Below the pieces are notes generated by a model. The model was not told the DNA's origin and did no database searches. It was given only the letters and a program-made list of their open reading frames with translations. From Candidatus Uhrbacteria bacterium (GTDB lineage Bacteria > Patescibacteriota > Patescibacteriia > 2-12-FULL-60-25): a stretch of DNA of 61,601 bases. Both the position numbers and the translations under genes were made by a program. Below are positions 24,599 through 55,222 of this stretch, piece by piece. The stretch is taken from assembly GCA_003231955.1 (NCBI GenBank), contig QIKL01000063.1:1-61601 (forward strand), written 5' to 3'. Each line of letters starts with the position of its first letter. The first letter of the stretch is position 1.

Positions 24599-24649
24599 AG
24601 AAAAACTTAAAACGAGGTTACCGCGTCTCCCATCTTGCGTAAAGAGTCA

Positions 24650-25366
24650 TCATTTTTTTAACGTATGAACTCGAACGGACTGAACCACAAATCCCAATCC
24701 AGGCGTATCGGCAATGACTTCGACTGATCCAGAGAATCCTACCGGAAGTTTAAAATTTCTAAAATATCCATTCGAACTCTTAGAGAGTGTTCCAAGGTTC
24801 CGAAGCTCCCCAGCATTAGGTCGGCTCCAAAGTGTAACTGTCCGTGCATTCGTGATCGTGGCGTGGACCACTATAGTACTCCCAGCCGGTACAGAATAGA
24901 TCCCAGAATCAAATTGTGCGCCCGCGAGTGTAAATGTTGTAATCTTTGGCGTGTCATTTTCCGCGGTTTTACAAATGCTTTGATTTTCGGCCGATGCACA
25001 CACTAATTGCGGCGCGCATGGGACAGAAGAGTCGCAGACCTCGCCCAACTGGCGAACGTCTTCCGATACACCCTGCGGCTGAACACAAAGGCCAAGAACC
25101 TCAGTCTTCCCACGATCAACACTACACTCAAGCCCTGGACGACATGGCAACCGTAACGGCCCTCCGCAATGGCTACCGAGTTCGCCAAGCGGCTCATTTG
25201 GTGGAATAAACTGACTCGGTGCCGCGCCGTTTGGCATTCCCATCGGGATCTCACGACGAATCTCAATAACACTAATAAGCCTTGTCGTGGCAACAACAAG
25301 AACAATGAGGCCAATACCCAGCCATGCAAAAATCGAGAGAAGACGAATCACGTCGGATCGTTTCAT
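24650..25366 (-). CDS. Membrane-anchored Cys-rich extracytoplasmic hypothetical protein
   Basis: No family recognised. The 238-residue protein has one N-terminal membrane helix (about residues 9-32), then two Cys-rich modules of similar plan (HCGGPLRLPCRPGLEC... and VCDSSVPCAPQLVCA...), and a beta-rich C-terminal half. The repeated modules look like small disulfide-bonded units. The ATG overlaps the stop of the upstream 360-residue gene (25363-25366), so the two are translationally coupled and probably work together at the cell surface. Confidence 0.65.
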   Translation of the reverse strand: MKRSDVIRLLSIFAWLGIGLIVLVVATTRLISVIEIRREIPMGMPNGAAPSQFIPPNEPLGELGSHCGGPLRLPCRPGLECSVDRGKTEVLGLCVQPQGVSEDVRQLGEVCDSSVPCAPQLVCASAENQSICKTAENDTPKITTFTLAGAQFDSGIYSVPAGSTIVVHATITNARTVTLWSRPNAGELRNLGTLSKSSNGYFRNFKLPVGFSGSVEVIADTPGLGFVVQSVRVHTLKK

Positions 25367-54238: not shown

Positions 54239-54520
54239 CTACAGAACGGCGTCCTTTGCGGCCTTAGCCACGCGGAACTTTACGACAGTCTTAGCCGGAA
54301 TCTTGATCGTTTCACCCGTTGCTGGATTGCGGCCCATGCGCTCCTTGCGGTCCACCTTCACAAGTTTACCGATACCCGGCACCACGAATTCACCCGAGGA
54401 CTTTACCAACTTGTACGCCATGCTGGTCATGGTCTCGAGAACCATCTCGACATCTTTTTTTGCGAGACCGCTCTTATCGGCGAGTTCTCGAATAAGCTGA
54501 GACTTTGTCAGTTTGGCCAT
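54239..54520 (-). CDS. DNA-binding protein HU
   Basis: A nucleoid architectural protein of 93 residues: MAKLTKSQLIRELADKSGLAKKDVEMVL, then GEFVVPGIGKLVKVDRKERMGRNPATGETIKIPAKTVVKF (about residues 45-85), containing the DNA-minor-groove arm RNPATGE. The frame continues 47 codons upstream but with no family similarity. It is an isolated unit with promoter and terminator. Confidence 0.95.
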   Translation of the reverse strand: MAKLTKSQLIRELADKSGLAKKDVEMVLETMTSMAYKLVKSSGEFVVPGIGKLVKVDRKERMGRNPATGETIKIPAKTVVKFRVAKAAKDAVL

Positions 54521-54575
54521 ATTGTTGTGGTCTAAAAAAATAAATAAAATGAATAAATGGATGAATGATTCGCAC

Positions 54576-54604
54576 AGTATAAGTGTGCCGCATGCGAAAA
54601 ACAA
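54576..54604 (-). promoter_or_regulatory. Promoter of the HU gene
   Basis: Read leftward, TTGTTT (54599-54604), 17 bases and TATACT (54576-54581). The -10 sits in a GCACA...TGTGC dyad (about 54571-54587) that could be an operator. The leader is about 49 bases, AT-rich. Confidence 0.55.
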
Positions 54605-54721
54605 GGAGAAACTGCAGAAAACGTCAAGAGGAAGCCCAAGCGCGGCACATGTATCACTCAATAATACGCTTAAAAGCCCAATAAAACATAGAATCCTAAA
54701 AAGAAAATACAGTGCGAATAC

Positions 54722-54763: not shown

Positions 54764-54839
54764 CGGGCTATGGCGCAGTTGGTAGCGCGCTTGCATGGGG
54801 TGCAAGAGGCCGCGAGTTCGAGTCTCGCTAGCCCGACCA
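54764..54839 (+). tRNA. tRNA-Pro (anticodon GGG)
   Basis: Cloverleaf with acceptor CGGGCTA/TAGCCCG, D arm GCGC/GCGC, anticodon stem CTTGC/GCAAG with loop ATGGGGT (anticodon GGG, G37), T arm GCGAG-TTCGAGT-CTCGC, A73 and encoded CCA. Confidence 0.96.
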
Positions 54840-54971: not shown

Positions 54972-55187
54972 AAAAACTAAAATCCGGAGAGTTGGCGAGA
55001 TGTTCGGTTCCGCTCCTAAGTGAGCACAACGTCTTGGGTCGCATCCGGGGGTAGATTACTCCACCGCGGTACGCCCAGGACTGAACGCTGCAGGACCGTT
55101 GCCGCTCCCCCACAAGAGAGCTCAATGCGCGTAGTCCTAAGAACATGATTTAGCCCGAAATCTCGTTCCAACCTAATGTCTCCGGAT
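54972..55187 (-). ncRNA. Structured noncoding RNA of about 216 nt, 6S RNA-like candidate
   Basis: On the minus strand the sequence folds as one long hairpin. Its terminal stem is ATCCGGAGA/TCTCCGGAT (55179-55187 with 54982-54990), GTTGG/CCAAC, CGAGAT/ATCTCG and TTCGG/CCGAA, with small bulges. A large internal loop follows, then TTGAGC/GCTCA, TCTTG/CAAGA, GGGGG/CCCCC and GCGG...CCGC stems. The 5' end falls exactly where the promoter at 55194-55222 predicts, and the 3' arm runs into TTTTAGTTTTT. No frame of note lies inside. Length, single-hairpin plan and open central bubble match 6S RNA, the RNA polymerase holoenzyme decoy. The identity is inferred from shape. Confidence 0.65.
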
Positions 55188-55193
55188 ATTCCA

Positions 55194-55222
55194 AGCATGA
55201 CGGGAGAGAAAAACCATGTCAA
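55194..55222 (-). promoter_or_regulatory. Promoter of the structured RNA
   Basis: Read leftward, a consensus TTGACA (55217-55222), a 17-base spacer and a weak -10 CATGCT (55194-55199). The predicted start near 55187 coincides with the first base of the terminal stem. Confidence 0.6.

Follow-up and report, generated by a model that had tools for sequence, protein, structure and literature searches.

Here we show that a Candidatus Uhrbacteria contig carries, on the minus strand of the window (the whole 61,601-nt stretch of DNA that was analysed), what is almost certainly a real, conserved gene for a structured RNA. Its novelty as an RNA family lies in the failure to match any known one, whether in Rfam 15 or in the open literature that was searched, where no structured RNA particular to Patescibacteria was found either, and very probably it belongs to none. 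Most likely the RNA serves as scaffold for an RNA-protein complex. To the full reading, in which it represents a new class of structured RNA, transcribed independently, acting in trans, present in single copy and serving as a housekeeping RNP scaffold by the mechanism proposed below, we assign a probability of about 0.6.

The gene, its predicted promoter and the elements of its fold are located as follows (f1 denotes the host family, Candidatus Uhrbacteria):

54972-55187, minus strand: RNA gene, recognised from homologues and covariation; predicted 5' end at the base of helix P1, 3' end in a U-rich run
55217-55222, minus strand: -35 element TTGACA
55194-55199, minus strand: -10 element CATGCT
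55179-55187, minus strand: P1 5' arm AUCCGGAGA, from the fold and the flank-swap test
54982-54990, minus strand: P1 3' arm UCUCCGGAU, from the fold and the flank-swap test
55168-55172, minus strand: P2 5' arm, from the fold and the flank-swap test
54991-54995, minus strand: P2 3' arm, from the fold and the flank-swap test
55155-55164, minus strand: P3 5' arm GAGAUUUCGG, from f1 covariation and the consensus fold
54997-55007, minus strand: P3 3' arm CCGAACAUCUC, from f1 covariation and the consensus fold
55139-55154, minus strand: junction strand J3/4 GCUAAAUCAUGUUCUU, which with the end of P3 yields near-invariant GGGCUAA
55092-55138, minus strand: hairpin P4 (AGGACU...GGUCCU), from the swap test and covariation within f1 and across families
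55026-55091, minus strand: hairpin P5 (GCAGCG...CGUUGU), from the swap test and covariation
55050-55065, minus strand: P5 tip GGUGGA-GUAA-UCUACC with a GNRA-type loop, from the sequence
55011-55025, minus strand: P6, a small hairpin of variable register after conserved GUGCUCAC, weaker than the other helices

The gene appears to be free-standing, with a promoter of its own that suggests independent transcription. As the first-pass annotation had noticed, TTGACA is followed at a spacing of 17 nt by the -10 element, and P1 begins 7 nt downstream of the latter, which puts the predicted start at the base of the stem; sequence and comparison together would place the 5' end of the RNA there approximately. 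The window's CATGCT is distant from TATAAT and agrees with the family consensus CATnCT. Promoter spacing is conserved, with TTGA[CT], exactly 17 nt and NANNNT (mostly CATnCT) occurring at 23 of 30 f1 loci as against 1.1% of random genome windows; loci of the other families mostly carry TGnTAnnnT, 27-32 nt ahead of P3. The RNA terminates in UUUUAGUUUUU, the U-rich 3' end seen in the original description, and downstream of many members lies a terminator-like hairpin with a T run. Aligned f1 homologues have in common TTGAC, the closing stem, GAGAUUUCGGGCUAAA, GCAGCGUUCA, GACGUUGUGCUCAC and CCGAAAAUCUC, often with the terminator-like hairpin next.

The absence of a coding frame, also claimed at the outset, is borne out by the homologues: each of the three forward frames contains a stop in 19 of 32 homologous cores, the lengths of the cores are evenly distributed modulo 3, and neither of the two ORFs overlapping the locus (73 and 75 aa) is a conserved frame.

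In the window the gene lies between tRNA-Pro (54764-54839) and ndk. Among family genomes the upstream neighbour is ndk in 10 cases and an uncharacterised protein of 430-475 aa in 13, and because the neighbours vary in this way the RNA is not tied to a single gene. This bears on the idea that the element acts in cis, as the 3' end of an upstream mRNA or the leader of a downstream gene, which we regard as very improbable: the RNA is frequently found some 100 nt downstream of a gene on the same strand, as such an element would be, but it has its own promoter immediately upstream, the neighbouring genes and their strands vary, and in many members a separate terminator-like hairpin, with its T run, comes next.

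The 430-475 aa protein is conserved, with its gene some 100 nt ahead of the RNA gene in L035, L037, L040, L042, L044, L045, L047, L050, L054, L060, L063 and L064. It has no Pfam match, and its C-terminal half recalls what we take to be a nucleotidyltransferase-like pattern; no copy was found in the window's own genome, which rules it out as an obligatory partner of the RNA. Downstream of the RNA, the window carries a gene for an HU-like DNA-binding protein (54239-54661, minus strand), and related genes lie downstream in seven family genomes.

Homologues were traced with DNA searches and covariance models. A search of 96 genomes at the DNA level yielded true homologues within f1, and a model built from 12 of the f1 homologues (R1) matched 32 of 40 f1 genomes, with a single strong locus in each; among the eight f1 genomes without a match some are incomplete drafts, and members diverge fast. 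R1 also matched one f46 genome weakly (L051), and a DNA search among f46 relatives found the RNA in all five searched members of that genome's genus and in one further genus. A second model (R2), made from six f46 sequences only, recovered f1 loci at the R1 coordinates (G018 with E 1.7e-10, also G011, G006, G036, G023, G025 and others) and further matched sixteen f46 genomes, one f2 genome (E 5e-16) and one f87 genome (E 2e-11); its top match within the window was the locus described here (E 0.0044). Family-specific models and a model of the 5' domain were used because MAFFT misplaced the 3' end of a joint f1 and f46 alignment. This third model, built across families with the window sequence left out, again ranked the locus first in the window (E 8e-5) and added a further f2 member and a likely f33 member (E 0.005), in which the P1 and P3 arms match.

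Judged by these matches, the RNA occurs in f1 and, within the same class, in no fewer than three other families (f46, f2 and f87), with f33 probably a fourth; the class is, we presume, ABY1. In a pattern scan, the hosts of homologues among named genomes were Candidatus Uhrbacteria or other Patescibacteria. Outside the class the 5'-domain model gave only chance-level matches, unrelated in look. Chance matches discarded by eye were L014, L193 (which looks coding), L194 and the phylum-level L203-L208. A plasmid collection gave no match. Since strict filters in large searches lose weak members, a genome without a match is not proven to lack the RNA.

Covariation in related genomes, which the first-pass annotation had held up as a check on its reading, was found in independent families, as looked for in a new RNA class. 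Scored on sequence-only alignments against shuffles that ignore relatedness, the named pairs of f1 held in 88.6% of cells; both partners had changed in 20 pairs, and the covariation score was 0.317 (0.198 when shuffled). The named pairs of f46 held in 93.8% of cells, both partners having changed in 19 pairs, and scored 0.436 (0.214 when shuffled); none of 500 shuffles reached the observed value in either family. For P4 across families the score was 0.647 against 0.242 shuffled, again with 0 of 500 as high. Sliding the partners by one to three columns abolished the signal in f1, in f46 and in the cross-family P4. The structures came from the same alignments on which they were scored, which favours these scores; swap tests are less exposed to such bias. 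The outer flanks forming P1 and P2 paired with their own partner at -19.8 kcal/mol and with a swapped one at -13.2, whereas the next flanks out, taken as a control, showed no difference (-8.9 and -8.7 kcal/mol). P4 gave -18.1 kcal/mol with its own and -11.3 with a swapped partner, and P5, swapped within group A, -26.6 and -20.2 kcal/mol.

These data support the outer part of the hairpin as originally drawn, with its arms at 54982-54990 and 55179-55187 complementary over 9 bp and followed inward by P2 (5 bp) and P3 (about 10 bp), and revise its interior. The minimum free energy (MFE) fold of the window RNA, at -88.1 kcal/mol, is more stable than all 200 shuffles (z = -3.7). Its inner single hairpin, however, pairs 61.7% of cells in a 12-sequence alignment with covariation near the shuffled level, whereas a branched interior on the identical alignment pairs 86.1% of cells and exceeds 500 of 500 shuffles. 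The first-pass annotation's picture of a big central bubble with more stacked stems thus gives way to separate hairpins P4, P5 and P6, and the single-sequence MFE structure was given up for the inner part. The window sequence alone favours the unbranched interior, its energy when constrained to the drawn consensus being -73.9 kcal/mol, a value that is too weak because the constrained fold sets the P5 tip one base off. By the comparative evidence, the fold is a closing helix P1-P3 around the GGGCUAA strand, with separate branches P4 and P5 and a variable P6.

Near-invariant GGGCUAA is common to all families that have the RNA. In the window the tip of P5 carries a GUAA loop. Across f1 this tip often reads CGGA-GNRA-UCUG, and across f46 often CGGU-GAAA-ACUG, with a G-U pair at the equivalent place. 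The base of P5 and P6 are drawn differently in f1 and f46, and P6, with its shifting register, is the least certain part of the structure. In J3/4 of many homologues UUCGG is repeated (the window and some others have no such repeat), and therefore either copy could serve as partner to CCGAA of P3; such alternative pairings could permit switching between two folds. A K-turn had been suspected in f46 P4 from the GGGCUUAGAACCG/CGNGAGAGCCC loop, and was set aside when covariation from U-A to C-G at the loop-closing position favoured a plain pair.

No known family accounts for the RNA. Nothing in Rfam 15 reached the gathering threshold at the locus and no family matched any homologue; extending the locus search to E = 10 gave as sole match a chance microRNA, outside the locus. 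Neither a known-family match nor a conserved protein frame, two of the findings that the first-pass annotation had named as telling against it, thus came to light. It had proposed either a new RNA class or a 6S RNA in divergent form. The new class is upheld by the promoter, the covarying structure and the lack of an Rfam match, and the 6S reading is supported by neither the model search nor the fold. The Rfam 6S model that it had put forward for the search, RF00013, found no match at the locus (E up to 10), in the homologues or in 43 related genomes, and was positive on controls from E. coli, B. subtilis, Caulobacter, Synechococcus and Lactococcus. Two of the models built here, run in the opposite direction, gave no full-length or significant match to the E. 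coli 6S gene. The one long hairpin with a central bubble expected of 6S RNA was not found, its inner hairpin being unsupported and the branched fold supported.

The other identities that the first-pass annotation had dismissed, RNase P RNA, tmRNA and SRP RNA, were likewise dropped, no Rfam model finding any of them at the locus. RNase P RNA (G000:C3:12449-12898, E 5.5e-58) and tmRNA (G000:C48:6546-6980) have their genes at other sites of this genome; the locus showed neither an RF00010 match with a conserved catalytic core nor an RF00023 match with tRNA-like ends and a tag frame.

SRP RNA calls for separate comment, as neither RF00169 nor RF01854 found one in 19 genomes, and the RNA could in principle be a divergent form of this missing component. 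We consider that extremely improbable. The SRP54 domain of Ffh and FtsY is missing too, with none over the curated cut-off in 13 f1 genomes, the window's own included, and one partial match over the cut-off among six other members of the class (controls 14/14 positive); neither a model match nor an Ffh partner was found, and the window RNA has no SRP core motif. As both SRP RNA and the SRP54 domain go undetected in the family, the RNA is not a hidden SRP RNA, and the SRP pathway seems to be absent from the lineage.

Descent from RNase P RNA, or from another RNA that binds the tRNA elbow, is very improbable, though one feature recalls it. Four f46 members (L169, L175, L176 and L179) carry an additional element, CGCGGUAAACCC-hairpin-GGGUGCAGCAA, between P4 and P5, and this resembles what we take to be the specificity-domain motif GGUAAAC...GCAAGG of RNase P. 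Members of f1 lack the element, however, the complete RNase P RNA is separate, the window RNA has no catalytic-core motifs, and at RNase P genes the models built here gave no match that was full-length or significant.

Functional replacement of 6S RNA deserves more weight, although we judge it unlikely. The closing helix would mimic downstream DNA and the junction an open promoter, and RNA polymerase would bind. The RNA resembles 6S RNA (RF00013, ssrS) in being free-standing, about 200 nt long and preceded by a putative sigma70-type promoter; its closing helix is long, and the 5' strand of the junction is conserved and unpaired. In 43 relatives RF00013 found no match. It differs from 6S RNA in its 45-nt hairpin on the 5' side, its branched P4/P5/P6 interior in place of a bubbled hairpin, its near-invariant junction and the failure of models to match in either direction. 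Strongly conserved junction letters are untypical of 6S RNA. A precedent is Ms1 of Actinobacteria, where 6S RNA is not found, an RNA of 6S-related structure with extra hairpins that binds core RNA polymerase (PMC9130861). The present RNA is likewise lineage-specific, has extra hairpins and occurs in a group without recognisable 6S RNA; Ms1 differs in its length of about 300 nt, core RNA polymerase binding has been shown for Ms1 only, we saw no sequence relation between the two, and the branched core of the present RNA speaks against a close resemblance.

We favour a housekeeping RNP scaffold. The RNA would be made constitutively. Its closing helix would gather the GGGCUAA strand and the basal parts of P4 and P5 into a core with several branches, and the P5 tip, frequently closed by a GNRA-type loop, would be either docked or exposed. 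This core, with its conserved junction, would bind a conserved protein or complex, the RNA thereby acting in trans; candidate complexes are RNA polymerase, in 6S/Ms1-like regulation, and the translation machinery. A bolder version, which we offer tentatively as the less probable one, is that this undescribed housekeeping RNA is restricted to a Patescibacteria class without recognisable 6S and SRP RNAs, and forms the core of an RNP with an essential role absent from other bacteria.

The orphan structured RNA classes raiA, OLE, ROOL and GOLLD were conserved and strongly structured, with function unresolved at discovery. The RNA described here is likewise conserved and strongly structured, and matches no Rfam family at the locus or in its homologues. 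A long hairpin-rich stretch elsewhere in the window's genome (L106:4800-5250; G000:C10, about 24600-25050), running CACAGGG...CGGAAGCAG and containing GGUUUCGACUAG, also has no Rfam match and is possibly another RNA of no known family.

When a lineage with genomes of about 1 Mb keeps an RNA in nearly every member, that RNA is usually important, and Patescibacteria make up a very large and poorly cultured share of bacterial diversity. The consensus lets the RNA be sought in metatranscriptomes immediately. If RNA polymerase proves to be its binding partner, the RNA would be a 6S RNA that was built independently; if not, it would point to an RNA-based function that has so far gone unrecognised.
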